NCBI RefSeq assembly: GCF_900182935.1
Contig: NZ_FXUE01000001.1
Coordinates: forward strand, 434,001-498,000
From: Fibrobacter sp. UWB10
Lineage (GTDB): Bacteria; Fibrobacterota; Fibrobacteria; Fibrobacterales; Fibrobacteraceae
Length of the DNA: 64,000 nucleotides
Reading direction: 5' to 3'
Shown one piece after another: positions 11,585 through 63,456 of this stretch. How positions within the stretch are numbered: the stretch's first letter is position 1; each line of letters begins with the position of its first letter. A model generated the notes under the pieces. It did not search any database. It was not told the DNA's origin and saw nothing but the letters and a program-made list of their open reading frames with translations. A program made the position numbers and the translations under genes.

Positions 11585-12775
11585 CTACATATCGCCTGTC
11601 TTCAGTTTGCTACCGTCACGGAGGTTTGTAAGCACTAGCCCGAGCAACAGGTAGAACACCGCCTGTAAAGCAAGCGGTAGCAACAGCGATGCCGCATCGT
11701 AAATGTCGGCGCCACGCTGTTCAATCGCAAGCCATGCCGGAATGGCAAATGTCGAAGGCAACAAGCAAGAGAAGCCCTTCATCCACGCCGGAATCAGTTC
11801 GGTAGGCCAGCTAAAGTTCGAAAGGAACAGAATCGGAATGCTCATGTACAGGAACAATTGCATGCTCGTTTCGCGACGCAGGAACACTTGCGAAAGTACC
11901 ATCCCGAAATTGATGACCGAAAACAGGAACACGATTGCAAAAGCCACCATCGGCAAAATTTCGCCGCGACGCGGAAAATCGAATACGTTGTAGACGACAA
12001 AGTGGTAGAACAGGATAAAGCTGCAGTAATGCAAGAAGTACGCAAGCGAGCGGCCAAAGTAGCGGTAAGGCATCAGTTCGTTTTCGACGGAGCTGTCACG
12101 CTGCAACTTGCGGAACTTGCGGTGAGCGCGGGCGCCACCCAGAATGCAAATGCCAATCACCAGCGTCTGCTGCAAAATCAGCACCAGTACGCTCGGCACC
12201 ACGTAATTCGAATAGCTACCCGTGTTGTTGTACATAGTCTGCACACTGATGGGAATCGGGTCGCGCATGGCAATAGCCTTTGCGGCCGGCACCTTTTTGC
12301 CTAAAGCAATCCGCTTGACTTTTGTAGTCGCGCCCACCGTGAGCGCACAAGTGGTAAAAGCCGTTCCGATGTTACCGTGGAGCATCACGTAAGCGCCGTG
12401 CGTGAACACGTTCACGTTCGTCTTGCCTCCGTTACGGAGCGTTTTCTCCATGTCTTTGGGAATCACCATGAAGCCATATATTTTTTCTTCGGCCATGGCC
12501 TGCTCCGCTTCGCGGATATCCGAAAACACGTAGCGCACATCGATTTGCTGGGCTGCCGCCGACATCTGCGTAAGTTCGCGCGACATGACCGTATGGTCAA
12601 GATCCACCACAGCCACAGGCACATCTGTAGCCGTCTGTTTCATGTAAGGCGTCGGGTAATAGAAGGCGTAAAGCACGCCCGCCACAACCAGCAACAACAC
12701 CGCAGCAGGGTCAGTGTAAAAGAGCTTCCATTCCGCAAACGCCACCTTGAAAAGTCGCTTAAAGAGGTCAATCAT
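11585..12775 (-). CDS. ABC-2 type transporter permease
   Basis: A 396-residue inner-membrane protein with the ABC-2 layout (YbhR/YhhJ type): one N-terminal membrane helix (AVLLLVVAGVLYAFYYP), a periplasmic loop of about 150 residues with a D-x-D-H-T-x-x-S-R-E-L pattern, then five C-terminal helices. The ATG at 12775 sits inside the end of the upstream permease gene (8-base overlap) behind GGAGGCAAAA, which indicates translational coupling. With the second permease, the HlyD-type adaptor and the TolC-type channel it should form a tripartite efflux or export complex. No ATP-binding subunit is encoded nearby. Confidence 0.88.
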   Translation of the reverse strand: MIDLFKRLFKVAFAEWKLFYTDPAAVLLLVVAGVLYAFYYPTPYMKQTATDVPVAVVDLDHTVMSRELTQMSAAAQQIDVRYVFSDIREAEQAMAEEKIYGFMVIPKDMEKTLRNGGKTNVNVFTHGAYVMLHGNIGTAFTTCALTVGATTKVKRIALGKKVPAAKAIAMRDPIPISVQTMYNNTGSYSNYVVPSVLVLILQQTLVIGICILGGARAHRKFRKLQRDSSVENELMPYRYFGRSLAYFLHYCSFILFYHFVVYNVFDFPRRGEILPMVAFAIVFLFSVINFGMVLSQVFLRRETSMQLFLYMSIPILFLSNFSWPTELIPAWMKGFSCLLPSTFAIPAWLAIEQRGADIYDAASLLLPLALQAVFYLLLGLVLTNLRDGSKLKTGDM

Positions 12776-14033
12776 TTTTGCCTCCTTTATGCAATTTTCT
12801 TTTGGCAATTTCAAATGCGACCGCCTTGCGAATGCTTAAGTCCGAATAGACTGCGTCAGCAACATTCTTCAACTTATCCTTAAGGTGCAATTTTTCGCGG
12901 GCTTCCCAGTCAGCCTCTTTTTCTTCGGCGACTTTCCAGCGCAACATCAAAAGCTTGGACGCAAGCAAATGCCAGAACAGCGCCATGAACAAAAGCACCA
13001 CAATAGATTCCCAGGCGTGAGCCTTGCCGACTGAACCCAAGAGCATCGCGGACTGAACCTTAAGAACATGTGTAAGCGGAAGCAGGAATGCAAAGCCGCG
13101 CACCACCAACGGCATCGCCATCACCGGAAAAGTCTGGCCCGCAAACGCAAACGCGGGGCCGGCGATAACGCCCGCCACGCTCGAAGACATACGCATGTTA
13201 CCCGTGATGCCCACAAAGGCGGCCCCCGCGCCAGAACAGGCGAGGATCATCGCCAGCTGCCCGGCAGACACCACCACAAATTCATCGAACGTCATCGGGG
13301 TCAGTGCACGCCTAGCATACGCATACACCGCCACCATCGACAGCCACTGAATCACGACCAGCGGCAAAACCGTCGCAGCGCCAAGCACCACACGCGAGCC
13401 GCCCGACGCCTTTAAGAATTCGCGGACTCGGTGATCGCGGAACGGGAAACTGAACAGGTACACCGCCGCTAAAATTCCTGCCAGATGGAAAATCGCCGTC
13501 ACCAGCCCAAGCCCTAAAAAGCCCTGGTAGTTACCGCTGTTGTTGCTGACCGACTTGAGTTCAACGTGAATCGGGTCGTCCATCTGCTTGGTAAACAGGT
13601 CAGCACCGATTGCCGAAATCACCGAGCGGATTTCCTTGACCGCAAAGGTATTCGTGAGGTAATTCTGGCCGCTCGAATACACCGGGATCACAGGCGTTTC
13701 AAGCCGGAGCGCCCGGCGTTCCATATCGTACGGGAGCACGATAAACGCCTGCAAGTCACCGCGAATCACCGCATGTTCGCATTCGCTGCGGTCATCGCAT
13801 TCCATGGCAACTTCGAGCACGGGGTCTGCCCGCAAGGCCATTTCAACTTTATCGGCCAGCTGCGAGCGGTCTTGCTTTAAAAGGCCAATCGGCACATGCT
13901 GAATGATTTCGGCCGAAAAGAAATTCACCATAAAGACCGATGTCACCACCGGCAAAATCAAGAGCACCAACCACAACACGATATTGTGACTGATGTAGAT
14001 TTTGCGAATCGCCCTTAAAACATCAAGGAACAC
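12768..14033 (-). CDS. ABC-2 type transporter permease
   Basis: A 421-residue protein and partner of the preceding permease, with the same architecture: an N-terminal helix (VLWLVLLILPVVTSVFMVNFF), a large periplasmic loop, and about five further helices. A GTG start at 14033 is chosen because TAAGG lies 8-12 bases upstream and no ATG gives the first helix intact. The C-terminus extends about 60 residues into the cytoplasm and is highly charged, which is unusual for this family. It begins 10 bases after the adaptor stop. Two unlike permeases side by side suggest a heterodimer. Confidence 0.87.
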   Translation of the reverse strand: MFLDVLRAIRKIYISHNIVLWLVLLILPVVTSVFMVNFFSAEIIQHVPIGLLKQDRSQLADKVEMALRADPVLEVAMECDDRSECEHAVIRGDLQAFIVLPYDMERRALRLETPVIPVYSSGQNYLTNTFAVKEIRSVISAIGADLFTKQMDDPIHVELKSVSNNSGNYQGFLGLGLVTAIFHLAGILAAVYLFSFPFRDHRVREFLKASGGSRVVLGAATVLPLVVIQWLSMVAVYAYARRALTPMTFDEFVVVSAGQLAMILACSGAGAAFVGITGNMRMSSSVAGVIAGPAFAFAGQTFPVMAMPLVVRGFAFLLPLTHVLKVQSAMLLGSVGKAHAWESIVVLLFMALFWHLLASKLLMLRWKVAEEKEADWEAREKLHLKDKLKNVADAVYSDLSIRKAVAFEIAKRKLHKGGKND

Positions 14034-14043
14034 GATTACGACC

Positions 14044-15042
14044 TTACTGAATCTGTTCCACCGGGAAAAGCACGCTCATGCCAGGGCGCAGGTTTTCGAT
14101 TTTAGCCTTCGGGCGCAGGCGCACTTCAAAGCTCTTGAGATCAAAGCCGCCGCTTTCCTTGGAGCTACGCCAGGTGGCGTAATCGCCTACAGACGCAATG
14201 TAGCTGACTTCCATTTCCACGTTCCTGTCGAGTGCCGGAATGAACATGCTGAAGGTCTTGCCCTTGGACACGTTCTTGAGCAAGTCTTCGCGCAAGTGGA
14301 ATACTGCCCAGGAATCGTCGAGGTCAGTAATAGCGACTACCGGCATGCCAGAGCCCACGACTTCGCCCTCTTCGACCAACTTCACGGAGACTTCGCCTGC
14401 GATGGGGGCGCGGATTTTGGTTTCTTCGAGGTAGGCGTCGACCTCGGCGTTGGCGCCCTTCGCTTGCATCACGAGTGCGTTTGCGGCAGCCTTGTCTTCG
14501 CTGCGGGCGCCGGCGAGAGCCTGTTCATACTGGGCCTTGGCGGCGTCGGCAGCGGACTGAGAGGCTTTCATCTGGGTTTCGGCTTCGTCGCGTTTCTGGA
14601 GCGGAAGCACGCCTTCGTTATAAAGTTTCTGCACGCGGTCGTAAGTATTCTTCGCAAGGTTCGCAGCATCCTGCGCGCGCGAGGCCATCGCCTTGAGGGC
14701 CGTGATGTCTTCGGAGCGGGCGCCGTTTTTAGCCTTATTCGCCTGGGCGCGGGCAGCACCTAAAGCGCCCTGCGCCTGCATCTTTTTGGCTTCAATTTCA
14801 GGGCTGCTGATGATTGCCACGATAGCATTCTTTTCGACCATGTCGCCTTCGCGGAAGAACAGCTGTTCCACGCGACCGGGAACTTTACCCGCCACCAACA
14901 CGCGGCGAGCTTCCATCTGCCCCTGCAAATAAGCATCGCGGGGTTCCGTCGCAAATTTCTGCAACGTGATAATTCCAAGAACGATCAAGGCAATCAACGC
15001 CAAGACGACCAAAGTTTTTCCAATCACTTTCAAGACGTTCAT
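14044..15042 (-). CDS. HlyD/RND-type periplasmic adaptor (membrane fusion protein)
   Basis: A 332-residue protein with one N-terminal membrane anchor (residues 8-26), a lipoyl half-motif (VLVAGKVPGRVEQLFFREGDMV), a coiled-coil hairpin rich in Ala/Lys/Glu at about residues 75-180, the second lipoyl half (IRAPIAGEVSVKLVEEGEVV), and a beta-barrel domain. Such adaptors bridge an inner-membrane transporter to a TolC-type channel. The gene lies between the channel gene (21 bases upstream) and the permeases (10 bases downstream). YhiI/YbhG proteins are the closest well-known type. Confidence 0.9.
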   Translation of the reverse strand: MNVLKVIGKTLVVLALIALIVLGIITLQKFATEPRDAYLQGQMEARRVLVAGKVPGRVEQLFFREGDMVEKNAIVAIISSPEIEAKKMQAQGALGAARAQANKAKNGARSEDITALKAMASRAQDAANLAKNTYDRVQKLYNEGVLPLQKRDEAETQMKASQSAADAAKAQYEQALAGARSEDKAAANALVMQAKGANAEVDAYLEETKIRAPIAGEVSVKLVEEGEVVGSGMPVVAITDLDDSWAVFHLREDLLKNVSKGKTFSMFIPALDRNVEMEVSYIASVGDYATWRSSKESGGFDLKSFEVRLRPKAKIENLRPGMSVLFPVEQIQ

Positions 15043-15063
15043 TCTTTTTCTCCATTTCTAAAA

Positions 15064-16797
15064 TCAGTTTGCGGGGGCAGCAGTTGTATCAGCCGGAACA
15101 GGCGCATTTGCTGAATCAGCAGGTACCGGCTCAGCAACCTTCGCAGAATCGGCAACCGGTGCAGCAGCGGGAGCAACAACAGGTTCGGCGGGCTTCGGTT
15201 CTTCTACCTTCGTTTCTTCGACCGGCTTTACGTTCTTGAGCATTTCGCCCGCATTCACTACTTCACCGCTCGCCTCCAAAAGTCCAAGCCAGGCAACCAC
15301 GGCGTCGTAATGCGCCTTCAAGTCAGCCACCTGCAAGCGCGAAAGCGCAAGTTCTGCATCCACTACATCCAAGCCCGTGGCAAGGCCCGCTTCGTAAGCC
15401 AAAGTCTGGCTGCGGTGCGCTTCTTCGGCCAATTCGCGGGTCTTCTTCAAACTTTCCAAGCGGCTCTTGGCATGCTCCATTTCACGCCAACGCTTTTCCA
15501 CAAGCAAACCAATGTTATCCATGGTCTGCTCTTCCATGCTTGCAAGCGAACGGTCAAGAGCCTTGGCGTTGCTCACCTTGGAACGCGTTTCGCCACCCTT
15601 GAACAAGTCCCACTGCATCTTGGCACCCACAGCCCAATCCGGTTCCAGGAGCGTCAAGTCGCGAGTATAAAGTTCCTTGTAGGCAAAGAGCGCCACCGTC
15701 GGGAAATAATCGGCGCGGGCAGCGCTCACCGCATCTTGACTACGCTTGCGTTCGGTGCGCAACTGGCGCAGACCCGGGTGTCTATCCATCGCAAGCTGCT
15801 TGAATTCTTCCATAGCCAAAGTCTGTTCCGGCGCCATGACAGGCGTAACAGCAGTCAAATTCGTATCCGTATGCAAAAGGCTTGCAAGCGCAAGGCGTGC
15901 AAGAGTCTGATCGCGGTAAGAATCTTCAAGAGCATTCTCGGCTTCGGCTAAAGCCACTTCGGCGCGCAGGCGTTCGGCCTTGCTAATCTGGCCACCCTCT
16001 TCCAATTTCTTGGAACGGGCTAAATGTTCTTCCAAGTTCTTCTTGGTGCTTTCACGGAGTACCGACAACTCTTCGGCCAAGCGAAGCGTAAAGTACTTGG
16101 TAGCCACATCCATCAAGATGGTATTCTGCGCCATGTCGAACGCAGCCTTCTTGGCATTCACGTTTTCCTTGGCGGCATCATAAGCGGAATAAATCTTAAG
16201 GCCCGTAAAAATAGGCCAAATGGCAGTCAAGCGAGCATTAAAGAAAACGTCGTCCTGCACCTTCATGCGGAAATCGGCATCATCAATTTGAGCTTTTGCC
16301 GCATCCAGCTGTTGTTTACTATCAGCCGCATACTTGTCAGCCGTCTGTTGAGCAATTTCTTGTGCGGTACCACCCACGCGGTTTTGGGCAAACGCTTTAG
16401 CCTGGGCTTCCGTCATGCCATTGGCTAAGGCACCATTATAAGCCTGCTCATAACCAGCCTGGGCCTTGTTGTAGGCATCGATGTATGCCTTGGAATAAAC
16501 TGCCGCCGGACCAACCGAAGAAAGCCCTCCAGCAAGTCCACTCATGGCCTGTTGAATTTCACCCAAGTCAATATAAATCGGGTCGTTGATTTTGGTGACA
16601 CTTGCCGTAAGCGAAAGTTGCGGCATAAAACGGGAACGGGCCTCGGTCTGACCACTTTCGGCCATATCCACTTTGGCCTTTTCAGCCTTAATCTGCGAAT
16701 TGTTCGCCTTTGCCATCGCAATCGCATCCGATAGCGAAATGGGCGCGGCAAAAACGGCGGCACTCGCTGCAATACCCAAAAACAAACTCTTTTTCAT
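15064..16797 (-). CDS. TolC-family outer-membrane efflux channel
   Basis: A 577-residue outer-membrane factor and first gene of the exporter operon. The signal peptide MKKSLFLGIAASAAVFAA is followed by the OEP repeat start (ISLSDAIAMAKANNSQIKAEKAKV). Two halves of long heptad-rich helices follow, with the second repeat near residue 320 (MEEFKQLAMDRHPGLRQLRTER). An insert of about 100 residues near 85-185 is rich in Ala/Gln/Tyr (AYNKAQAGYEQAYNGA). The last 60 residues are a Pro/Ala/Glu/Val low-complexity tail not found in TolC. It forms the outer-membrane duct for the adaptor and permeases downstream. No clear Shine-Dalgarno is seen at the ATG. Confidence 0.9.
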   Translation of the reverse strand: MKKSLFLGIAASAAVFAAPISLSDAIAMAKANNSQIKAEKAKVDMAESGQTEARSRFMPQLSLTASVTKINDPIYIDLGEIQQAMSGLAGGLSSVGPAAVYSKAYIDAYNKAQAGYEQAYNGALANGMTEAQAKAFAQNRVGGTAQEIAQQTADKYAADSKQQLDAAKAQIDDADFRMKVQDDVFFNARLTAIWPIFTGLKIYSAYDAAKENVNAKKAAFDMAQNTILMDVATKYFTLRLAEELSVLRESTKKNLEEHLARSKKLEEGGQISKAERLRAEVALAEAENALEDSYRDQTLARLALASLLHTDTNLTAVTPVMAPEQTLAMEEFKQLAMDRHPGLRQLRTERKRSQDAVSAARADYFPTVALFAYKELYTRDLTLLEPDWAVGAKMQWDLFKGGETRSKVSNAKALDRSLASMEEQTMDNIGLLVEKRWREMEHAKSRLESLKKTRELAEEAHRSQTLAYEAGLATGLDVVDAELALSRLQVADLKAHYDAVVAWLGLLEASGEVVNAGEMLKNVKPVEETKVEEPKPAEPVVAPAAAPVADSAKVAEPVPADSANAPVPADTTAAPAN

Positions 16798-16827
16798 AAC
16801 GCAATAAAAATAAATTTTTCCATACAG

Positions 16828-16848
16828 AAAAACCGCCCCAAAGGGGCG
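16828..16848 (-). terminator. Rho-independent terminator of the DUF4956/VTC operon
   Basis: CGCCCC/GGGGCG stem (16834-16839 with 16843-16848, loop AAA), followed on the minus strand by GGTTTTTC. It sits 39 bases after the lamin-tail lipoprotein stop and before the TolC gene start, separating the two operons. Confidence 0.88.
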
Positions 16849-16886: not shown

Positions 16887-18593
16887 TTATTTACCCGGAG
16901 TCGGCTTGTCAACAGTCCAAGCTGCAGCCTCATAACCCATCGTGGTAAAGTCCTTACGCTGCAAGCTATAGCCGTAGCCGTCCGCGCGCTTGTAATCAAT
17001 ACCGTTGCCGCTCCAGTTATCGCTATAGAGCGTTGCATCGGACCAATCGTAGTACCACTGGCTATTAAGCGGATTGCTTACGTCATTCTGGAAGAAATAG
17101 GGCTTCTTGACAGCAATCATTTCACCGCGGTTAGAAAGCTTACCACTGTAGAAGCTGATCAACACGGATGCATCGATTGCATAACGCTTTCTCATGCCTT
17201 CTTCACCATAAGCAGCCTTCAGGGAATCCGGGAACAAGACAACGAGTCCACCCGCCGGAATCACATCAGTCGCAGAAAATTCAAAGTTGATACCTTCAAT
17301 CTTCCAGCCTCTATTTCCGCTCGTCAATTTTTCATACGGAGTAATGGCCACTTCAGAAACGTTCTTGAGTTCCAAGAATTCGGCATCGTTAAGGTCATCT
17401 TCATTCGGGTGGTAATTGATTTCGGTAATCACCAAAGAACCAATATAGAGCGTAGAGTTCGGTTCACCCGGAGTAGCTGTAACCAAAGCGCCCTGAGCCG
17501 TAGAGCCATCGCTCAAATCAACGACACCGCTCGAAAGCTTACTAGACGGCAAGAGCAAGCTGGATTCATCACCTTCGGTAGCACCATACAGGTAGTAAGA
17601 ACCACCGATATCGCTCACAATCAGTTCCGTCGGTTCGCCATCGGAATTCACGAAGTCAGTCGTTGCATTCAAGACAAGGTAACCCTTTGCAGGAACCGTA
17701 CCGGCCTTAATCGTGAGCTTTTCCTTACGAATCTTGGATTCAAAAATCCAACCGGTCACATCGACAGCTTCAGCACCTGCGTTATAGAGTTCCACCCACG
17801 CATCGGTGCCCGTACCCGTCGGCATGATTTCGTTCAAACGAATATTCGAAGTCGTGAGCCATTCGTCGTTGCCCACACCCGGATTACCGTTCATAATCTT
17901 GCTTGCACCCCAAGAGGTAGCCTGGGCAGCGTTTCCGCCCTTGTACACGAGCGTACGGCCCTTACCATTAGCCAGAGACGGCCAAGGCGGTTCCATACTG
18001 TAAGAGCAGCTCACGTCACCTTCACCCGTCAACTTCACGTCAATCACATCACCTTCGTTCGAAAGTTTTGCAACTGCTCCCGTCTTCGGATCATTATCCC
18101 ACGGGCCATAGAGTTTACCCTGGAAATCGGGATAAGTCTGCATGAACAAAGCCTTGTCGTTGGTCACGACAATGTATTCACCCTTCTTAAGGGGCTCATT
18201 CGGGAACGTAAAGGAAAGAGCACCATCCAAACGCATACCCGAAGCAAGCATGCTGGCGATATCCGGACCACTCTGGATAGTCACTTCGACCCATTCCAAG
18301 GCAGAACCATCGTCTGCATTGTACATGATTTCGGTAATCGCCATCTGGGTCACAGATTCATCTGCAACAGACGAAGAGGAAACCCCAGGAACCGGTGTAG
18401 AATTACCGTCACTGCTCGAAGAACCGGTAACAGGAACATCTCCAGACGAACCCGGAATCGTGCCATTTTCCGAGGACGACGAAAGCGTCGGATCGCTAGG
18501 ATCAGGCTCTGAAGATTTGTCACTGGAGCAAGAGGTGGCCAGGACCATTGCGGTCACAGCCGAACCTGCCAAAAGAATTTTTTTGATATCCAT
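16887..18593 (-). CDS. Lipoprotein with lamin-tail (LTD) domains
   Basis: A 568-residue surface or periplasmic lipoprotein. The lipobox is LATSC (Cys22), then a Ser/Pro/Gly-rich linker to about residue 78 of the kind common on Fibrobacter surface proteins. Three lamin-tail-like beta-sandwich domains start at about 84 (MAITEIMYNADDGSALEWVEV), 260 (IRLNEIMPTGTGTDAWVELYN) and 390 (VITEINYHPNEDDLNDAEFLEL). In other bacteria LTD domains are often fused to CotH kinase domains next to VTC and DUF4956 genes; here no CotH kinase fold is seen. It is the last gene of the five-gene operon, 31 bases after the VTC gene, with GAGG upstream of the ATG at 18593. The role is unknown; a surface receptor or anchor for the exported product is an inference. 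Confidence 0.8.
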   Translation of the reverse strand: MDIKKILLAGSAVTAMVLATSCSSDKSSEPDPSDPTLSSSSENGTIPGSSGDVPVTGSSSSDGNSTPVPGVSSSSVADESVTQMAITEIMYNADDGSALEWVEVTIQSGPDIASMLASGMRLDGALSFTFPNEPLKKGEYIVVTNDKALFMQTYPDFQGKLYGPWDNDPKTGAVAKLSNEGDVIDVKLTGEGDVSCSYSMEPPWPSLANGKGRTLVYKGGNAAQATSWGASKIMNGNPGVGNDEWLTTSNIRLNEIMPTGTGTDAWVELYNAGAEAVDVTGWIFESKIRKEKLTIKAGTVPAKGYLVLNATTDFVNSDGEPTELIVSDIGGSYYLYGATEGDESSLLLPSSKLSSGVVDLSDGSTAQGALVTATPGEPNSTLYIGSLVITEINYHPNEDDLNDAEFLELKNVSEVAITPYEKLTSGNRGWKIEGINFEFSATDVIPAGGLVVLFPDSLKAAYGEEGMRKRYAIDASVLISFYSGKLSNRGEMIAVKKPYFFQNDVSNPLNSQWYYDWSDATLYSDNWSGNGIDYKRADGYGYSLQRKDFTTMGYEAAAWTVDKPTPGK

Positions 18594-18624
18594 AGAGGTA
18601 TCCTCGCAAAAACTTTCTTCTATT

Positions 18625-19455
18625 TTAATAATTTTCGCCAGCGCCAACGGCAAGCTTCGTCCAGTACGGAGTCTTGAATCGACGCGGATTTTCATAAACT
18701 CGCTTCCATTCGGCAGCGGCATTGCCGAATTTAGAGAATGCACCATGTTTCAAGTTCAAGAACTTGATTAAGTCAAACATCCAGTACGGCACCTGCGAAC
18801 ACGGGCACTTGAGTTCAAGCACAGCATCGCAACCCGGTTGGAAAAACCTAGGAATGCCAGTCGAATGCATGTAGTGCGGGTCCACCGTATAATCAAAACC
18901 GTTTTCTTCGCGGAAACGCATGCCGGTATCAATCGTCACGCGAGAATATTCTTCGCGAAGTCCGAACCAGGCGCGACGTTTGTACTGCGTCAAAAGGCGC
19001 GGATGCGCATTATAGAGTTCCGTCTTGTACAAGAAATCTTTGACGTACATGCGGTCTTTTTCACCCTTGCACGGCCAGTCTTCAGGTTTCATGTTCCAGA
19101 CTTCGCCCGGGTTAATGCCCTTGATGGTTCCGCGGCTCTTGTAGCAAATGTTCTTGATCTTGCGCTTGCATTCAAAGTGGAACGTTCCGTCTTGAGCCGG
19201 GTGTTCACCATAGGTGCGAATGCGCATGTTAAAGCGGTCCAACAACTGTTTCTTTTTCCAGCCGAGGAACGTCCAAGAAGGCGAATCCAAGTAGAGGTTC
19301 GTAATCCAGTAGAATCCGCCCGGCGTAATTTTAGAATAGTAGTCTTCTTCGCAGTACGGAGCAAGGAATGCGCCGATACGGTCCGCCCATTCCACGGGAA
19401 TGTGGTACTTGAGTTCGAACCTTTCGAGAAGGCTAAATCCGCGGGCTTCGGCCAT
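18625..19455 (-). CDS. VTC-domain (polyphosphate polymerase-like) protein
   Basis: A 276-residue soluble protein of the VTC family (PF09359), whose yeast member Vtc4 makes polyphosphate from ATP inside a tunnel-shaped beta-barrel. The charged tunnel residues expected for nucleotide and metal binding are present in order: Glu14 and Lys16 (FELKYH), Arg78 and Arg80 (MRIRTYG), Glu95, Lys97 and Lys99 (ECKRK), Arg172 and Asp176 (RVTID), and Glu214 and Lys216 (LELKCP). No signal peptide or membrane segment is seen, so it acts in the cytoplasm or at the membrane with DUF4956. The start is 1 base after the stop of the channel gene. The true product (polyphosphate or another phospho-polymer) is not known for bacterial members in such operons. 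Confidence 0.88.
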   Translation of the reverse strand: MAEARGFSLLERFELKYHIPVEWADRIGAFLAPYCEEDYYSKITPGGFYWITNLYLDSPSWTFLGWKKKQLLDRFNMRIRTYGEHPAQDGTFHFECKRKIKNICYKSRGTIKGINPGEVWNMKPEDWPCKGEKDRMYVKDFLYKTELYNAHPRLLTQYKRRAWFGLREEYSRVTIDTGMRFREENGFDYTVDPHYMHSTGIPRFFQPGCDAVLELKCPCSQVPYWMFDLIKFLNLKHGAFSKFGNAAAEWKRVYENPRRFKTPYWTKLAVGAGENY

Positions 19456-19456
19456 A

Positions 19457-20848
19457 CTACTTGAGCCCCCCGACTAAGTGGTTCTGCACGCCTTCCTTGG
19501 AAAGCTGGCCTGCATACTGCAACAACTCAAGATAAAGGTCGTAAATGTCGACTTCGAGCTTGACTGCATTCAGTTCGCTTTCCACGGCAGATTCGCGGGC
19601 ACGCAGCAAAAGAAGCGGGTCAGAACCGGCGTCTTTTGCAAACTGTTCAAAAATGTTACCCGCTTTAACCTTTTCGGCAAAGTCCTTCTGAACCTTCCAT
19701 TGAGCAAGGAATCCGTTGATCTGTTCGACAAGGCGATTCACCTTCACGCTCACATCGCGGAACTTTTCCATATAATCGCCTTCGGCTTCAAGGTCTGCCA
19801 CCTGGTTACGCAGGTCGTTATCCTTGTTGCTGTCAAAGAACGGAAGCTTAATGCCAATGTTTGCAAAGAACTTGTCACGAGTGCGACGATTGTCCTTGTC
19901 ATCCACAAGTCTCTGGATAGAATACGTATTGTCAAAGCGATTGTTTTCTTCATCGTAGGCATTTTTCGTCCACTTGGCACAATCTTCTTCGCTGTAATAT
20001 TCACCCTTCGTATTGCACAAATCGTCGTAGCCCATATCCTTGTACTTTTTCATCAAAGACGGAATCTTGAGCGAATAGCCGATACCGATATGCGAAATGT
20101 AGTCGCGGCGGCTAGCAACATCTTGCTTGGCGCGAGCCTTTTCGGAATCCATCTTGCCCTTGGCCATGGCAACTTGCGGGAACTTGTCACTTACATCGAC
20201 GCCATCTTTCAACTGAGCTTCGATATCTTCCATAGGCGGAAGCCAAGAGGAATCCAGTTCAATGCTATCGAATTCAGGAATCCACACGCGGAGTTTTCTT
20301 TCGGAATTCTGGAGCGAGTTGGAATCGTTAATGAGGGCAGCACGGATAGAAGCTTCTTTTTCAAGAGCAGACATCAAATCTTGCGGATTGAAGTTTGCCG
20401 AGCCCGACTTGAGGTGCAGGACTTCAATGCGGTCCGCATTAATCTGGTAAAGTTCCTGGTTAAGCGCATTGATTCGTTTGCGCATCAGGTAATGAATTCC
20501 GCGTTCATAGCGGTCATACAAAAGGACGGCGCGATCTTCAGCCAAATTGGCATTTGCATAAGCCATTTGGGCTTCGTAATGCGCACGGTCAGCAGAACCT
20601 TCGCCAAAAGCCTTAGGAGTCATGCGAAGTTCAAAGTCATGTTGTGCAAAGCTGAAGCCATCGAGTTTGTAACGCAACTCAAGTTTGTCCCACAGTTTCG
20701 TGTTGCGAGAGGTCGCAATGTTCACACGTTTTTGAGAACCCTGATAACGGGCGTCATCATCAGCAGACTTGATGAGGGTTTCCCAAGTCAGCGGGGCGGC
20801 AAGCAACGGTGCTGCAACAAACAGAGATACAAGAGCGGATTTTTTCAT
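19457..20848 (-). CDS. TolC-like outer-membrane channel of the VTC operon
   Basis: A 463-residue protein with signal peptide MKKSALVSLFVAAPLLAA and a long helix-rich body with two weakly repeated halves, as in outer-membrane efflux proteins. The match to TolC is weaker than for the gene at 15064: there are no obvious OEP signature lines, and the insert near residues 270-320 is rich in Asp/Tyr/Cys. The assignment leans on the size, the heptad pattern (VNRLVEQINGFLAQWKVQKDF) and its place 8 bases after an adaptor gene. It would provide the outer-membrane exit for whatever the DUF4956/VTC pair makes or moves. Confidence 0.7.
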   Translation of the reverse strand: MKKSALVSLFVAAPLLAAPLTWETLIKSADDDARYQGSQKRVNIATSRNTKLWDKLELRYKLDGFSFAQHDFELRMTPKAFGEGSADRAHYEAQMAYANANLAEDRAVLLYDRYERGIHYLMRKRINALNQELYQINADRIEVLHLKSGSANFNPQDLMSALEKEASIRAALINDSNSLQNSERKLRVWIPEFDSIELDSSWLPPMEDIEAQLKDGVDVSDKFPQVAMAKGKMDSEKARAKQDVASRRDYISHIGIGYSLKIPSLMKKYKDMGYDDLCNTKGEYYSEEDCAKWTKNAYDEENNRFDNTYSIQRLVDDKDNRRTRDKFFANIGIKLPFFDSNKDNDLRNQVADLEAEGDYMEKFRDVSVKVNRLVEQINGFLAQWKVQKDFAEKVKAGNIFEQFAKDAGSDPLLLLRARESAVESELNAVKLEVDIYDLYLELLQYAGQLSKEGVQNHLVGGLK

Positions 20849-20856
20849 AAATCAAA

Positions 20857-21921
20857 CTATTCGGAGATGGTCACCATTTCGCCCAAGAGGAACGAATTTT
20901 CGGCAGGAATCGTGATAATGACTTCGCGGCCGTGAATCGGCATTTCAGGCATCTTCCACATACGCACGGGGAATTCCACAATACGGCTCGAAAGGCCAAC
21001 GACCTTGCCCTTAATCGGCTTGCCCGTTCCGCCCAAAGCTCTCACCTTGACTGTTTCACCCACATCCATACGCTGGTACATTCTTTCGTGGATGTAGCCA
21101 CGAACGAGCGTCGGGGACTTGTGAGTGAGGGTGACGATCGGGGCGAAGCTAGATACCTTTTCGCCGTCATGAACGTTCACAGAGCCCACGACCCAGCTTT
21201 CCTTGGCAATCTGGGTCAACTCTTCTTGCTGCTTCTTGAGTTCTTCGAGTTCCTTCTGCAGGTTCTCGACTTCGCTCTTGCCAGCATCCTTCTGCAAACG
21301 GTTGCTGCTGCGCAGGAGCTTGATCTGTTCGTTGGCGTTGGCGTTAGCAACGGCAAGTTCGTTCTTCAAGCTCTTGATTTGCATAGCCATAGCGTCGTTA
21401 CCGTCGCTGTCGGCGTTGGAACCCTTGAGGCTCTTGAGCTTTGCAGCAATTTCCTTGTTCTTCTTGTATTCGGTTTCGAGTCTGTTAATTTCGGACTTGA
21501 GTGTAAGGGTCTTCGTAGCAAGGTCAGCCTTGACTGCGGCAACCTTCTGGTCGATATCGGCAGCCGACAGGTTGCTACGGCCTTCGCTGGCATCCAGTTC
21601 GCGAGTCACTTCAGCAATGCGAAGCGTGAGGTCCGGGCGGTTGAGTTCCACAATGGTATCCCCCGCATTAATTGCCTGACCAGGCATCACATGCACCTTG
21701 ACCACTTCAGTCGGGCTCGGCACGCTAATGGTCGTTTCGGCAGCTTCTGCAACACCCTGGAAGGTGGCAATCTTGCCCTGATACATGTAGCCAAGAATAA
21801 TGGCGATAATGACACAGAGAATCCAGGCCAAAGAAAGCTTGTGGCCATAGACATAAGCGACACCGGCATTAGACTTGTGCGTGTTCCAAAAATTTTCGAG
21901 CATATCGCTAAGCTTGTTCAT
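20857..21921 (-). CDS. HlyD-type periplasmic adaptor of the VTC operon
   Basis: A 354-residue protein with a cytoplasmic N-terminus of about 28 residues, one membrane helix (LSLAWILCVIIAIILGYMY), a lipoyl half (VVKVHVMPGQAINAGDTIVEL), and a very long coiled coil at about residues 95-250 with Lys/Glu/Leu heptads. The second lipoyl half (WVVGSVNVHDGEKVSSFAPIV) and a C-terminal barrel follow. It should link an inner-membrane partner, most likely the DUF4956 protein encoded 10 bases upstream, to the channel 8 bases downstream. No ABC or RND transporter is encoded in the operon, so the inner-membrane motor is unclear. Confidence 0.83.
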   Translation of the reverse strand: MNKLSDMLENFWNTHKSNAGVAYVYGHKLSLAWILCVIIAIILGYMYQGKIATFQGVAEAAETTISVPSPTEVVKVHVMPGQAINAGDTIVELNRPDLTLRIAEVTRELDASEGRSNLSAADIDQKVAAVKADLATKTLTLKSEINRLETEYKKNKEIAAKLKSLKGSNADSDGNDAMAMQIKSLKNELAVANANANEQIKLLRSSNRLQKDAGKSEVENLQKELEELKKQQEELTQIAKESWVVGSVNVHDGEKVSSFAPIVTLTHKSPTLVRGYIHERMYQRMDVGETVKVRALGGTGKPIKGKVVGLSSRIVEFPVRMWKMPEMPIHGREVIITIPAENSFLLGEMVTISE

Positions 21922-21931
21922 ACCGTCTCCC

Positions 21932-22615
21932 TTACATTTCCGTCGTGGCGTCCTGCATCATGAACTGTACGTCCGAGATGCCTTCGATTTTAGAGAGTTC
22001 GCTCAGGATTTCTGCAGCCGGATGAGTGGCGCGCAGGCGAATCTGGTAAGCGACGTCAAGGCGAGCACCGCCGTCAACTTCACGCATCGTAATCAAGATG
22101 AACGTCTTGAGGCTAGACTTCATGATGTCTTCGATCTGACCACGGACCTTGGCTTCGTTGGGGAGCGCAAAACGGAGCATGCCATCAAAGAAGTGCTTGG
22201 TACCAAGACCAGTACGAGAAAGGAGGAAGGCCACAGCGCTAAAGGCAATCGTGCCACCCACGGCAGCACCCCAGGCGTACACACCGCAACCGATACCGGC
22301 GCCAAGCGATGCGAACACGAACATAATATCGCGCGGGTCTTTAAAGGATGTTCTAAAGCGAACCACAGAAAGAGCACCCATCATACCGAGACCGCGACCG
22401 ACGTTATCACCGATAGCCTGCATCACCGTGGCGGCAACGACTGCACTAAGCACAATTGCCTGCACAAAGTTTCTGGAGTACGACAACCCGAGGAAGGTCT
22501 TTTCGTAGGTCCACGCAATCACCGAGGACAGGATAAATGTGAGGATCAAGGTGTACGCCAACGTAATGAGAGTGGCATTGGCGGTGCCGGATTGGACGGC
22601 TAATAGGTCGAGCAT
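21932..22615 (-). CDS. DUF4956 membrane protein
   Basis: A 227-residue protein with four hydrophobic segments in the first 135 residues and the strongly conserved loop GRGLGMMGALSVVRFRTSFKDPRD that marks DUF4956 (PF16316). A cytoplasmic C-terminal domain of about 90 residues follows (ERGREV-type alpha/beta, ITMREVDGGARLDVAYQIRL). DUF4956 proteins are often encoded beside VTC and CotH genes; the activity is unknown. It is the first gene of the operon, with GGAG before the ATG. The 264 bases upstream carry its promoter region and an 11-bp tandem repeat. Confidence 0.88.
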   Translation of the reverse strand: MLDLLAVQSGTANATLITLAYTLILTFILSSVIAWTYEKTFLGLSYSRNFVQAIVLSAVVAATVMQAIGDNVGRGLGMMGALSVVRFRTSFKDPRDIMFVFASLGAGIGCGVYAWGAAVGGTIAFSAVAFLLSRTGLGTKHFFDGMLRFALPNEAKVRGQIEDIMKSSLKTFILITMREVDGGARLDVAYQIRLRATHPAAEILSELSKIEGISDVQFMMQDATTEM

Positions 22616-22833
22616 AGGGACTCCATGGTTTACTTTTTATTTTTCAGCCAAAATTTACTTTAATCACTCGCAAAATAGCGAATTTTTGTGTAAAAATGGA
22701 TGAACAAAAACCAAACGTTCCTAAAAAAATGAGGCGATTCGGGACGAATTCACCCTTATTTTACCACACCAGTTAGAATAATAGCAAAAAAGGCCTAAAA
22801 TAGCACCTAAAAAGATTTTTGCATTCTTAAACA

Positions 22834-22879: not shown

Positions 22880-23908
22880 TCAGTTGAATCGGCCCGCTCC
22901 AACACGACGCTTACGGCCCCTTTCAGACACCAAAGCTTCAATCAAGAACAAGAGTGCAGCGAGAGCCAAAAAGATCTGATAGCGGTCCTGATAATTTTCC
23001 ATGCGGTCAGACGACTGTTCTTTTTTTTCAAGACTTGCAATTTCAGAGAGCACCTTTTGCAACTGGAATTCGCCAGGGTTTGCATAGAAATACAAACCGC
23101 CGGTAACGCTTGCAATCTCTTGCAGAGTTCCGTCTTCCAAACGGGTCGTCACGATGTTTCCTTGCATGTCCTTTTTGTAAGCGACTTCGCCATTCTTGGA
23201 GGGCACCGGAATAGGCACGCCTTCGCGAGAACCGATACCGATTGTATAAATGCGGATTCCCATTTCGGCGGCTTCCTTGGCGGCGTTTACGGCAGCGGCT
23301 TCAAGTTCTTCGCCATCGCTCATCAAAATCATCACGGAGTACTGTCCGGCGCTTCCCGAATTGCGATACAGATCCATACCCTTGCGGATTGCCTTTTCGA
23401 GGTTTGTACCCGGCATGAGCCAGCCTGGAGTCAATTCCTTGAGCATCATCTGCACAGTGCCGTAATCCAGTGTCAAGGGCACCATCACCTGGGCTTCGCC
23501 CGAGAATGCCACAAGGCCTACGCGATCGCCCGAAAGCGACTCCAAAAACGCCGAAATTTCATGACGGCTACGGGTCAAGCGATTCGGCTTGATATCTTCG
23601 GCAAGCATCGAAAGCGAAATATCCTGCAAAAGCACCAAGTCAAGGCCGCGACGTTCAATATGTTCCATTTTACGGCCCCACTGCGGGCGCGCAAGAGCCA
23701 CAAACAAGAATGCAATCGCAAACAGCAGAATCGTCACCTTCGCAAGCCTGCGCCACGGCGAAACAGAAGTCGAAAGCTTAGGCAACATCGAAAGCGAAAC
23801 AAATCGAGCTGCGAGTTTTTTGCGACGGTGGTAAGCATACACAAAAAGGAGCGCAAACAGAGGGAGCGTTAAAAGGCCCCACAAAAACATCGGTTCAGCA
23901 AATCGCAT
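22880..23908 (-). CDS. batB: BatB-like von Willebrand factor A membrane protein
   Basis: A 342-residue protein with two N-terminal membrane helices, a periplasmic-type VWA domain with an intact MIDAS start (Asp96-x-Ser98-x-Ser100 in QDISLS), then T and D positions (PGTNLEKA; MSDGEE), and a C-terminal helix (IFLALAALLFLIEALV). This is the BatB layout of the Bacteroides 'aerotolerance' operon. The role in the envelope is still poorly defined; MoxR-type ATPases are the usual partners but none is in the window. It starts 12 bases after batA. Confidence 0.85.
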   Translation of the reverse strand: MRFAEPMFLWGLLTLPLFALLFVYAYHRRKKLAARFVSLSMLPKLSTSVSPWRRLAKVTILLFAIAFLFVALARPQWGRKMEHIERRGLDLVLLQDISLSMLAEDIKPNRLTRSRHEISAFLESLSGDRVGLVAFSGEAQVMVPLTLDYGTVQMMLKELTPGWLMPGTNLEKAIRKGMDLYRNSGSAGQYSVMILMSDGEELEAAAVNAAKEAAEMGIRIYTIGIGSREGVPIPVPSKNGEVAYKKDMQGNIVTTRLEDGTLQEIASVTGGLYFYANPGEFQLQKVLSEIASLEKKEQSSDRMENYQDRYQIFLALAALLFLIEALVSERGRKRRVGAGRFN

Positions 23909-23920
23909 CTAAAGCCTCCA

Positions 23921-25024
23921 TTACGGAATGCGCACAAAGCGCGTATTCGCAAGCAACAATTCAAGTAAAATCAGCAATGCACCCACCAAGAGCCACGGGT
24001 AGAACTTTTCGGCATAGCGGGCGTATGCAACCGTTTCGATTTCGGTCTTTTCGAGTTCGTCGATTTCGGAATAAATCTTTTCGAGTTCTTCCTTATTTTC
24101 GGCACGATAGAAGCGGCCACCCGTCTTTTGGGCCACAGACTTCAACACGCCTTCATCAATTCCTTCTTCGGGCGTAATGTCGCGTTCACCCCAAGAAATA
24201 TCGCCGGTCCACGGATTCTGCTGGAAAGCAAGAATCTTGCCGTTCCTTTTACCCACGCCAACAGTATAAACCTTGACTCCAAGCGACTTCGCCACATCGG
24301 CAGCACGCATGGGCGGCACAAGGCTTGCATTATCGCGGCCATCGGTCAAAAGCACCACCACCTTGGACTTGGCTTCGGACTTTTGCAGACGAGCAAGGGA
24401 ATTCATAAGTCCATCACCAATGGCCGTGCGACTGCCCATAATAGAATCGCGGGCTAGGTCATCAGTCGCCTTCAAAATTTCAAGCAGCGAACCATAATCC
24501 AGCGTCAAGGGGCACTGCGTAATGGAACGTGCCCCAAAAGCAGACAAACCGATTCGGTCGCTATGACGCTTCTGGATAAAGTCCGCAATCACCTGTTGGG
24601 CATAACCCAGGCGGCTATACTTCCAATAATCGCCGGATTTCAAAATTCGTTCGGCATTCATCACGCCGAGTTTCGCCTGTTCCATACGGGTGAGCATATC
24701 AAGCGTACCCATGGAGCCCGAAACGTCGAGTGCAAGCATAATGTCGACGCCATCGGTCGAGGTGTATTCGACTTCCATGGCGTTCTGCGGGCGTGCAAGT
24801 GCCACCACAAAGCAAACGAGGGCGGCCAAGCGCAAAATCGGCACAATATGGCGGAATTTGACGCGACGGCTCGGAACCGCACGTTTGGCAATCGAAAGGG
24901 CCGGGAATTTAATCGTACTCTTGCGGCGGTGTTCACGATAGATATACCAACCGACTAAAACAGGGACTAAAAGCAAAAGCCAGAAGGCTTCGGGATTCTG
25001 AAAATGTAGCGCACCAATATCCAT
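23921..25024 (-). CDS. batA: BatA-like von Willebrand factor A membrane protein
   Basis: A 367-residue paralogue of the next gene: two N-terminal helices (FWLLLLVPVLVGWYIY and LRLAALVCFVVALARPQ), and a VWA domain with MIDAS Asp100-x-Ser102-x-Ser104 (LDVSGSM). The threonine is in SRTAIGDGL and the aspartate in LLTDGRDN. The C-terminal helix is PWLLVGALLILLELLL. An insert of about 25 residues after the MIDAS (ERILKSGDYWKYSRLGYAQQ) is longer than in common BatA. The ATG at 25024 follows GGAG. DUF58 and moxR genes normally upstream in bat operons are absent. Confidence 0.85.
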   Translation of the reverse strand: MDIGALHFQNPEAFWLLLLVPVLVGWYIYREHRRKSTIKFPALSIAKRAVPSRRVKFRHIVPILRLAALVCFVVALARPQNAMEVEYTSTDGVDIMLALDVSGSMGTLDMLTRMEQAKLGVMNAERILKSGDYWKYSRLGYAQQVIADFIQKRHSDRIGLSAFGARSITQCPLTLDYGSLLEILKATDDLARDSIMGSRTAIGDGLMNSLARLQKSEAKSKVVVLLTDGRDNASLVPPMRAADVAKSLGVKVYTVGVGKRNGKILAFQQNPWTGDISWGERDITPEEGIDEGVLKSVAQKTGGRFYRAENKEELEKIYSEIDELEKTEIETVAYARYAEKFYPWLLVGALLILLELLLANTRFVRIP

Positions 25025-25088
25025 AAAATCTCCGAAAAAACGCAAAAAATCAAATTTTACAACGGAGAATATACAAAATTGCAACGAA

Positions 25089-27158: not shown

Positions 27159-28535
27159 TTAATTTCTATGGAAGTCGTCTTCGACGCGGATGATGTCATC
27201 TTCGCCGGTGTATTCGCCCACCTGGACTTCGACGATGACCAGCGGGAGTTTGCCTTCGTTTTGCAGGCGATGAACTTCGCCCACCGGGATGTAAGTCGAT
27301 TCGTTCGGACGCACGTAGAAGACGTTCTTGCCCACGGTCACCGTAGCAGTCCCGCTTACAACCACCCAGTGCTCCGAGCGATGCAGGTGCTTTTGCAGGC
27401 TAAGGCGCTTGCCCGGCTTCACCACAATACGCTTCATCTTGTAGCGTTCGGTAGATTCCAGCACGGAGTACGTACCCCACGGGCGGCTCACAGTCTGCGG
27501 CACGTTAATGAGGTCAGAACCGCGTTCCTTGAGTTCTTCCACCACCTTCTTGACCTTCTGGCTGCTGCTGAGCGGAGCAACCAAGAGAGCGTCCGGCGTG
27601 TCCACGATGAGCATCTTGTCGAGGTCGATCGTCGCGATGGTACGCTGACCGCCCATCACAAGGGAATTCTTGGAGTCCACGGCAATGTGGCGCGGGTTCA
27701 CGTTGTTGCCGTTTGCGTCGTGCTGGTATTCGCCATAAAGGCTGTCAAAACTGCCGAGGTCGCTCCAGCCGATATCACTCGGAACCACCTTCACCTTGTT
27801 GGACTTTTCCATGACGGCATAGTCGATGGAGTTCGACGGAATAGCCATCATGTCGTCACGGTCAATGCGGATGGGTTCACCGTCTTCGACTGTCGCATTG
27901 GCAAGAGCCTTTTTCGCGGCGGCGAGCATTTCCGGGGAGTATTTGCCCAGTTCGGCGAGGAACGTCTTTGCCGTAAAGCAGAAGATACCGCTGTTCCAGT
28001 AGAAGTTACCTGCCAGCAGGTACTTTTCGGCTGTGGCGCGGTCGGGCTTTTCCACAAAACGCTTTACATTTTCGCCATCGGCTTCGATATAGCCGTAACC
28101 CGTTTCAGGGCTAGTGGGCGTAATGCCGAACGTCACCAAGTTACCGGCCTTCGCCAGTTCTTCGGCGCGGAGAAGAACCTTCTTGTATTCGTCCTTCTTG
28201 CGAATCACGTGGTCAGACGGAGACACCAGCACAATCGTTTCAGGAGTCATCGTGAGGCAAGCAAGGGCAATAGCCGGGGCTGTGTTACGGCCCACGGGTT
28301 CCAGAAGGAACTTGCTACCCGTCATGCCTTCCATTTCAAGCTGGTCCTTGGCCAAGAAGAACTGGTCGGCATTCGAAACAATAAACTGCGATTCGCAAAC
28401 AGCGGAGTTCGTAACCACGGTCTTGCGGAACAGGGACTGTCCGTCAAAAAGCGGCGCGAACTGCTTGGGCATCAGGGAACGGCTCACGGGCCAAAGGCGC
28501 GTGCCCGAACCACCACAGAGAATCAAGTTAATCAT
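27159..28535 (-). CDS. manC: Mannose-1-phosphate guanylyltransferase / mannose-6-phosphate isomerase
   Basis: A 458-residue bifunctional ManC/AlgA-type enzyme making GDP-mannose for surface glycans. The nucleotidyltransferase domain starts LILCGGSGTRLWPVSR. FLLEPVGRNTAPAIALA is the sugar-binding signature. The C-terminal cupin (about residues 355-458) carries QKHLHRSEHWVVVSG, the metal-binding isomerase region. Length is close to the family norm of about 470. The start lies 10 bases after the Wza-like gene stop, so the two should be one transcript. Confidence 0.95.
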   Translation of the reverse strand: MINLILCGGSGTRLWPVSRSLMPKQFAPLFDGQSLFRKTVVTNSAVCESQFIVSNADQFFLAKDQLEMEGMTGSKFLLEPVGRNTAPAIALACLTMTPETIVLVSPSDHVIRKKDEYKKVLLRAEELAKAGNLVTFGITPTSPETGYGYIEADGENVKRFVEKPDRATAEKYLLAGNFYWNSGIFCFTAKTFLAELGKYSPEMLAAAKKALANATVEDGEPIRIDRDDMMAIPSNSIDYAVMEKSNKVKVVPSDIGWSDLGSFDSLYGEYQHDANGNNVNPRHIAVDSKNSLVMGGQRTIATIDLDKMLIVDTPDALLVAPLSSSQKVKKVVEELKERGSDLINVPQTVSRPWGTYSVLESTERYKMKRIVVKPGKRLSLQKHLHRSEHWVVVSGTATVTVGKNVFYVRPNESTYIPVGEVHRLQNEGKLPLVIVEVQVGEYTGEDDIIRVEDDFHRN

Positions 28536-28545
28536 ATAGTCCTAC

Positions 28546-29676
28546 TTACTTCCAACCATTGTTATGGATCGTTTCAACATTGTAAATAATGTCCGTAGTC
28601 GTCTTACCAGCACTGATCGTCGGTGTAATCAAACTAAGCAGACGGTTCCATGTTGCAAGTTCAGAAGCGTCGACGTAAACAATATCACGAGAATTCAATT
28701 GGAAACGATCTGCCATGGCAAGAGCCATCGCATTTTTCGCATTCAATTGATACACATCGATTTGCTTCTCAGACGTATTGCGAATAACATAAATTCCACG
28801 AGAAGTAGCATTCAGAGCCTGCAGACCACCTGCAGAGGCCAAGGCTTCGGCTAGTGTCAAATTGCCGTTATAAATATCCACAACACCAGAACGACCAACT
28901 TCACCCAGCACATAAACCTTCTGGTCCTTCTGGGTTTCACTGAGGGCCGGAACAAAAATTTGGTCATCCGGCTTTACCATCATACGTTCAAGCGGAAGTT
29001 TCGACTTGAAAGCATCAAGATAATTGATGTTATAAACTTTATCTCCACGGCGAAGCTGCATTGCAGAAGGGTCTGCCTTTTCAGAGAAGCCACCTGCATA
29101 AGCAATAGCATCGGGAATCGTCATCGGATTTTCGTTAAAAGCCACATATCCCGGTTTTTCCACGGAGCCGGCAACAAACATTTTGCGGCTATGGTAACCC
29201 GTCACGCGGACATCCACCTGCGGATCGTTCAAGATCTTGTCAGAGAGACGCTTCGTGATTTCAGCACGGAGTTCCTGAGCGGTAAGGCCAGCTGCCTGAA
29301 GTTCACCAGCATACGGATAGAAAAGCTTTCCATCGGTAGTCACCTTCTGACCAGCCGGCTGATACTGACCCATCGGAGACGTCAATTCCGGGTGTTCCCA
29401 CACCACGACCTGAACCATGTCCAGAGGTCCAATGCGGTATTCCAGTTCCGGCAAAGAATCCACCACGAGATCCTTCAGGTCGCCCAAATCAGTAGAGTCA
29501 CCAGCCTTGGCAGCACCCTGGCCCACATCGCCTTCATGAATCGCATGCAACCTTACAATCATGCCATTGTATTCAGTGGAGTCTCCCGGTAAAGCCATTT
29601 GCATCTGCGGTCCAAGAGCGCATCCGCTCAACATGGCGACAGCAATAAGGCCAATGCCCAAACTCAATTTCTTCAT
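28546..29676 (-). CDS. Wza-like polysaccharide export lipoprotein
   Basis: A 376-residue outer-membrane lipoprotein with lipobox LSGC (Cys19). The polysaccharide-export domain starts near residue 80 (YRIGPLDMVQVVVWEHPEL) and is followed by two SLBB domains (KMFVAGSVEKPGYV; KVYVLGEVGRSGVV). The C-terminal helix that spans the outer membrane in Wza lies near the end (WNRLLSLITPTISAG). It should form the exit pore for capsule or O-polysaccharide. The matching tyrosine kinase (Wzc) is not in the window, but a Wzb-like phosphatase gene lies 21 bases upstream. Confidence 0.92.
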   Translation of the reverse strand: MKKLSLGIGLIAVAMLSGCALGPQMQMALPGDSTEYNGMIVRLHAIHEGDVGQGAAKAGDSTDLGDLKDLVVDSLPELEYRIGPLDMVQVVVWEHPELTSPMGQYQPAGQKVTTDGKLFYPYAGELQAAGLTAQELRAEITKRLSDKILNDPQVDVRVTGYHSRKMFVAGSVEKPGYVAFNENPMTIPDAIAYAGGFSEKADPSAMQLRRGDKVYNINYLDAFKSKLPLERMMVKPDDQIFVPALSETQKDQKVYVLGEVGRSGVVDIYNGNLTLAEALASAGGLQALNATSRGIYVIRNTSEKQIDVYQLNAKNAMALAMADRFQLNSRDIVYVDASELATWNRLLSLITPTISAGKTTTDIIYNVETIHNNGWK

Positions 29677-56878: not shown

Positions 56879-56906
56879 AATCTTATTTTACCTCCCACAA
56901 ATAATT

Positions 56907-56940
56907 AAAAAAAGGAGAATGCGCCCCCCGGCACATTCTC
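56907..56940 (-). terminator. Terminator or attenuator between the two GH9 genes
   Basis: An 11-bp stem with one G-T pair (56915-56925 with 56930-56940, loop of four) is followed on the minus strand by seven T residues. It is 10 bases after the upstream GH9 stop and only 28 bases before the ATG of the downstream GH9, with GGGAGG between. Confidence 0.88.
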
Positions 56941-56950
56941 TCCCTTATTT

Positions 56951-63427: not shown

Positions 63428-63456
63428 AATAGCCTCCTTTGTATACAACCAAATGG

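Follow-up and report, generated by a model that had tools for sequence, protein, structure and literature searches.

How a polymer might be carried across two membranes by an adaptor and a channel, with no pump, is the question raised by five adjacent genes of Fibrobacter sp. UWB10. The genes are located in a window of 64,000 nucleotides (the whole stretch of DNA that was analysed; contig NZ_FXUE01000001.1, positions 434,001 to 498,000) and encode a DUF4956 membrane protein, an HlyD-type adaptor, a TolC-like protein, a VTC-domain protein and an LTD lipoprotein. In an initial annotation it was proposed that a polymer made by the VTC protein leaves through the adaptor and the channel and meets the LTD protein at the surface; this interpretation is partly supported by the present analysis. 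We give an approximately even chance to the reading that the operon exports inorganic polyphosphate by a route that has no pump and is driven by the polymerase.

Members of the genus Fibrobacter are the main cellulose degraders of the rumen, and extracellular polyphosphate has been reported for bacteria. Neither PPK1 nor PPK2 was found in the genome that contains the window, and of 37 Fibrobacter genomes, 36 lack PPK1; the operon VTC is a possible polyphosphate synthase for these PPK-less organisms. No description of the operon was found in the open-licence literature on DUF4956 with VTC, on polyphosphate export and on Fibrobacter polyphosphate. A report of a dedicated bacterial polyphosphate exporter was not found in the open-licence literature either, which by itself does not prove novelty. 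With a candidate VTC polymerase and a trans-envelope channel in one phylum-spanning unit, the operon is a direct and testable export candidate; if the reading is correct, it would be the first dedicated bacterial polyphosphate exporter, and its tripartite channel would be powered by polymerisation instead of a pump.

Gene organisation

The five genes comprise positions 16887-22615 of the window, all on the minus strand (Table 1). The intergenic gaps of 10, 8, 1 and 31 bases were recounted from the ORF coordinates with the same values as annotated initially, and the gene arrangement is confirmed. The terminator annotated at the operon end was also recovered, as a G+C hairpin and T run from 16848 to about 16826, 3' of the LTD gene; in the minus-strand reading, the stem CGCCCC/GGGGCG is followed by GTTTTTCT. 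Two BatA/VWA (aerotolerance-type) genes are located immediately upstream of the operon (22880-25084, minus strand), as in some other Fibrobacter genomes.

Table 1. Features of the operon and its flanks, with positions in the window
Feature	Position	Strand	Evidence
DUF4956 membrane protein, 227 aa	21932..22615	-	PF16316, E=1.9e-11
HlyD/EmrA-type periplasmic adaptor, 354 aa	20857..21921	-	HlyD_3 PF13437, E=2.5e-10
TolC-type outer-membrane channel, 463 aa, divergent	19457..20848	-	homologues and AlphaFold model
VTC-domain candidate polyphosphate polymerase, 276 aa	18625..19455	-	PF09359, E=2e-29
Three-LTD lipoprotein, 568 aa	16887..18593	-	PF00932, E=3.8e-24, three stretches
Intrinsic-terminator-like hairpin and T run, operon end	16826..16848	-	G+C stem, scored on + strand
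Candidate promoter TTGCTA-18-TAAAAT with TG, weak	22758..22787	-	consensus match only

Conservation of the gene order

Genome contigs were scanned with a DUF4956 alignment, which gave 236 relatives, and the best 80 of these were examined. Among these best 80, a total of 70 loci contain DUF4956, HlyD, TolC and VTC genes, and 69 of the 70 have them in the order DUF4956-HlyD-TolC-VTC on one strand; in the sole exception (L130), the DUF4956 gene is relocated to the operon end, with its strand unchanged. The best matching loci are those of Fibrobacter succinogenes. The operon is also found in other families of Fibrobacterota, and the four-gene loci span Fibrobacterota including Chitinispirillaceae, Desulfobacterota (Desulfamplus, Desulfobacteraceae) and Gammaproteobacteria (Crenothrix polyspora and others); in a bin named Planctomycetota, DUF4956-HlyD and TolC-VTC are located on separate contigs (L129 and L155). 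Most of the 70 loci belong to Fibrobacter or close kin, so that the locus count exaggerates the number of independent cases and the cross-phylum cases form the main argument. The gene order is conserved beyond the strain, the genus and the phylum, so that the refuting condition set in the initial annotation, a gene order confined to this strain, does not apply; a chance gene neighbourhood is ruled out by the order being kept across phyla. In Desulfamplus magnetovallimortis, the VTC gene is split over two reading frames (L124, 14290-15110; a frameshift or sequencing error), and the adjoining operon genes appear intact.

Nearly every Fibrobacter genome contains one copy of the VTC gene, which is rare in an even draw of genomes (9 of 369 Gammaproteobacteria; 11 of 297 in the phylum of Desulfamplus). 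Many VTC loci of the even draw represent a second cluster type, VTC-DUF4956-CotH without HlyD/TolC. At five loci without HlyD/TolC (L141, L142, L144, L149, L154), VTC-DUF4956 is accompanied by CotH proteins with a C-terminal right-handed beta-helix.

These channel-less clusters, which are common in diderms, bear on an alternative that we consider rather unlikely: that VTC and DUF4956 form the core, with polyphosphate used in the periplasm or at the inner membrane, and that HlyD-TolC secrete another product or clear stray polymer, being co-regulated and not part of one conduit. The existence of clusters without HlyD/TolC implies that a VTC-DUF4956 core works channel-free. VTC-DUF4956 pairs with CotH nearby are found also among the accessory genes of Gram-positive Pel clusters (PMC7112168, PMC12345266), where there is no outer membrane and no HlyD/TolC is reported; in the Fibrobacter operon, in turn, no Pel genes were seen. 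The HlyD-TolC pair could indeed carry other cargo. However, the HlyD and TolC genes are placed between those of DUF4956 and VTC, and across 23 diverse loci neither a pump nor a gene for another cargo is recurrent. The association with the channel is also ancient and has become fixed within a single VTC clade: in a tree of 47 VTC proteins, which has several long branches among the channel-less proteins, all 26 channel-type VTCs are on one side of a single branch (support 97/98), a clustering equalled in 0 of 500 shuffles. The operon VTCs thereby form a clade apart from the sampled channel-less diderm VTCs, and within this 47-protein sample the VTC-channel association needs no more than a single origin.

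The VTC protein

No membrane helix (hydropathy) and no SPX domain (Pfam) are predicted for the VTC protein. A search of the PDB with the single sequence was uninformative, whereas a profile of 25 operon VTCs matched, among solved structures, only eukaryotic VTC-complex subunits, with Vtc4 (3g3q) first (E=5e-9).

The residues K16, R78, R80, E95, K97, K106, R160, R172, E214, K216 and K242 are invariant in all 25 operon VTCs. Invariant in the same set are the counterparts of Vtc4 R264, R266, K281, K294, R361, R373, E426 and K458 (yeast R264, R266 and E426 correspond to R78, R80 and E214, and K458 to K242); the position of Vtc4 K455 is non-basic in the operon VTC and is the sole checked active-site position without invariance. 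Except for R264, R266, E426 and K458, the Vtc4 positions are those that we take to form the active site; K200 is beyond the aligned region, and K16 is presumably its counterpart. The Vtc4 numbering was anchored on the full-length chain 8i6v and on R264/R266 of PMC9911596. A yeast VTC complex with R264A/R266A/E426N is catalytically impaired (PMC9911596), and K458 of Vtc4 has been termed catalytic (PMC4641920). With the VTC domain and nearly all checked Vtc4 active-site residues present, the assignment as a VTC protein holds, and on these sequence grounds the protein is a candidate polyphosphate polymerase.

TTM folds are diverse in activity, and close structural kin may lack polymerase activity (PMC4641920). 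As an alternative explanation, the VTC protein might act as a triphosphatase, or it might be a polymerase and supply a product that phosphorylates a glycan or protein destined for export; the exported polymer would then not be polyphosphate. The location of the Gram-positive VTC-DUF4956-CotH genes in Pel polysaccharide operons is in line with such a role, and of the two N-terminal acidic residues that characterise TTM hydrolases, one glutamate (E14) is left, so the operon VTC could still have hydrolase activity. We regard this explanation as unlikely, because the motif at the metal-binding glutamate (beta-8) matches that of Vtc4 (E-x-K) and differs from the E-x-E of TTM hydrolases (PMC4641920), because the profile matches are solely to VTC-complex subunits, and because no glycosyltransferase family recurs in the 23 diverse loci.

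The DUF4956 membrane protein

The AF2 model of the DUF4956 protein (moderate; pLDDT 74, pTM 0.54) comprises about five membrane helices and a C-terminal beta-alpha-beta-beta-alpha-beta tail. Foldseek matches of the tail, all of them weak (0.01), were to ACT domains and to 2lqj, the C-terminal domain of MgtC; the match to NCBIfam MgtC/SapB is also weak (5e-4, below the cut-off), and no convincing full-length solved relative was found by profile search or Foldseek. From the model, the protein looks MgtC/SapB-like with an ACT-like cytoplasmic domain. MgtC is a known regulator and is not known as a channel, and the role of DUF4956 might be regulation only. For Streptococcus SIR_1592, of a matching cluster, an MgtC-like and ACT-like reading is given as well (PMC12345266).

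Adaptor, channel and candidate driving force

The HlyD adaptor matches PF13437 and PF16576 above the cut-off (Pfam), has one N-terminal membrane helix (about residues 23-53, hydropathy) that would anchor it, and matches EmrA structures in a profile search. The TolC-like gene alone matched nothing in Pfam or NCBIfam; an OEP match was obtained for 25 of 35 aligned homologues (best 1.5e-7), and the AlphaFold (AF2) model (pLDDT 84, pTM 0.73) gave 42 Foldseek hits at E<=1e-3 to chains of TolC, OprM, CusC and their kin. By its modelled fold and the OEP matches of its homologues, the third gene product is a TolC-type channel, and the adaptor/channel pair of the initial annotation is upheld.

This pair had been annotated as complete but lacking a pump. 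No ABC, RND or MFS pump is present in the five-gene operon (Pfam), and none of these pump families occurs in at least three of the 23 diverse loci; an unsupervised family count at that threshold gave nothing beyond the families of the operon itself, LTD/CotH proteins, antisense shadow frames and a small number of families limited to three loci. The claim stands for the operon and its relatives, and is weakened by an ABC-2/HlyD/TolC set directly downstream in Fibrobacter. This set, conserved in Fibrobacter (11585-16797, minus strand), contains genes for TolC (OEP), HlyD and a pair of ABC-2 permeases, with a zinc metallopeptidase gene after them; none of its tested genes encodes an ATPase.

That the adaptor and channel serve the downstream ABC-2 permeases (11585-14033), the operon being part of a larger ABC exporter region, is very improbable in our estimate. 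The downstream set begins within 90 bases and adjoins the operon in other Fibrobacter genomes too; however, it possesses an HlyD and a TolC of its own, the terminator-like hairpin is located in between, and it was not seen adjoining the operon in other families or phyla. Its absence from the loci of distant relatives indicates that the set is probably separate, and in the absence of a recurrent pump the polymerase is the sole candidate motor.

LTD and CotH proteins

The LTD protein starts with a signal peptide and lipobox (MDIKKILLAGSAVTAMVLATSC), as read from the sequence. The CotH kinase that was described as missing is indeed not among the five operon genes; nine CotH domains are found elsewhere in the genome. 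The further suggestion that the LTD protein stands in for CotH was not borne out. LTD and CotH genes are side by side in L123, L134 and L137 (the CotH of L137 being assigned by likeness to that of L134), and this joint occurrence in relatives rules out a replacement and makes LTD a companion of CotH. CotH genes also flank the operon, sometimes with LTD genes, in Chitinispirillaceae, Desulfamplus, L125, L130, L148 and L155.

In the Desulfobacterota sample, CotH was found in 7 of 11 genomes with VTC and in 0 of 286 others (p=9e-12, uncorrected for kinship), and in the Gammaproteobacteria sample in 7 of 9 and in 18 of 360 others (p=9e-8, likewise uncorrected). That VTC and CotH genes travel together would be explained if CotH-family kinases at the surface used exported polyphosphate as a phosphoryl donor or substrate outside the cell, an idea that we consider doubtful. 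Equally doubtful is its fuller form, in which the polymer would be made from ATP, threaded to the outside where there is no ATP, and used there by CotH and LTD proteins.

Phosphate-related genes at related loci

Two Gammaproteobacteria have a gene for a PHO4 phosphate transporter between the TolC and VTC genes (L138, 4456-6021; L139, 10228-11820). In two Chitinispirillaceae loci, the HlyD and TolC genes are separated by a gene for a phytase-like beta-propeller (PF13449); loci with a stand-alone propeller gene include L134 (11789-12709). In eight loci (L127, L124, L125, L129, L136, L138, L139, L148) the propeller is fused to the HlyD C-terminus, and the Fibrobacter operon has no such propeller. 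As predicted from sequence, the transporter and the propeller speak for an independent phosphate context of the operon.

Proposed function and comparison with known systems

For the export of polyphosphate, we infer the identity of the polymer, its direction, the coupling and the use at the surface as follows. The soluble VTC protein would use ATP to synthesise polyphosphate on the cytoplasmic side of the inner membrane, as suggested by the conserved Vtc4 residues. Its partner would be the MgtC-like DUF4956 protein, the usual partner in bacteria, for passage through the membrane and, with the ACT-like domain, probably for regulation; the operon thus assigns DUF4956 a likely role. The growing chain may push itself through, by analogy with the yeast VTC complex, and the HlyD adaptor would connect the components in the inner membrane with the TolC channel; no ABC or RND pump would then be needed for the chain to cross the periplasm and the outer membrane. 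Outside the cell, the polymer might be held or acted on by the LTD lipoprotein and, in relatives, by CotH-family kinases.

In synthase-dependent exopolymer export, glycosyltransferases are combined with beta-barrel/TPR exit ports. In the alginate system (Alg8-Alg44-AlgK-AlgE), synthesis drives export via a dedicated envelope route, and the periplasmic part of Alg44 is HlyD-like; the operon is alike in its proposed working, but has a VTC enzyme and TolC instead. With tripartite efflux and type I secretion systems (EmrAB-TolC, AcrAB-TolC, HlyBD-TolC), it has in common the HlyD/EmrA-type adaptor and the TolC-fold channel, whereas the conserved operon unit contains a polymerase and no MFS, RND or ABC pump.

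The yeast VTC complex (Vtc1/Vtc3/Vtc4), a polyphosphate polymerase-translocase, couples polyphosphate synthesis to translocation (PMC9911596) and is a precedent for synthesis-driven transport. The operon shares with it the TTM/VTC catalytic domain with nearly all checked active-site residues and, in the proposed model, cytosolic synthesis tied to a membrane protein; it differs in that the membrane part is DUF4956 (MgtC-like), without VTC1-type helices and without SPX, and in the addition of HlyD and TolC for the second membrane.

Other features of the window

A GDP-mannose pyrophosphorylase/isomerase-type gene and an adjoining Wza-type polysaccharide export gene are located a few kb upstream of the operon (27159-29676). 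At 51032-63448, two very large proteins of 1948 and 2165 aa are encoded; both combine a GH9 cellulase domain with a domain of the purple-acid-phosphatase N-terminal type.
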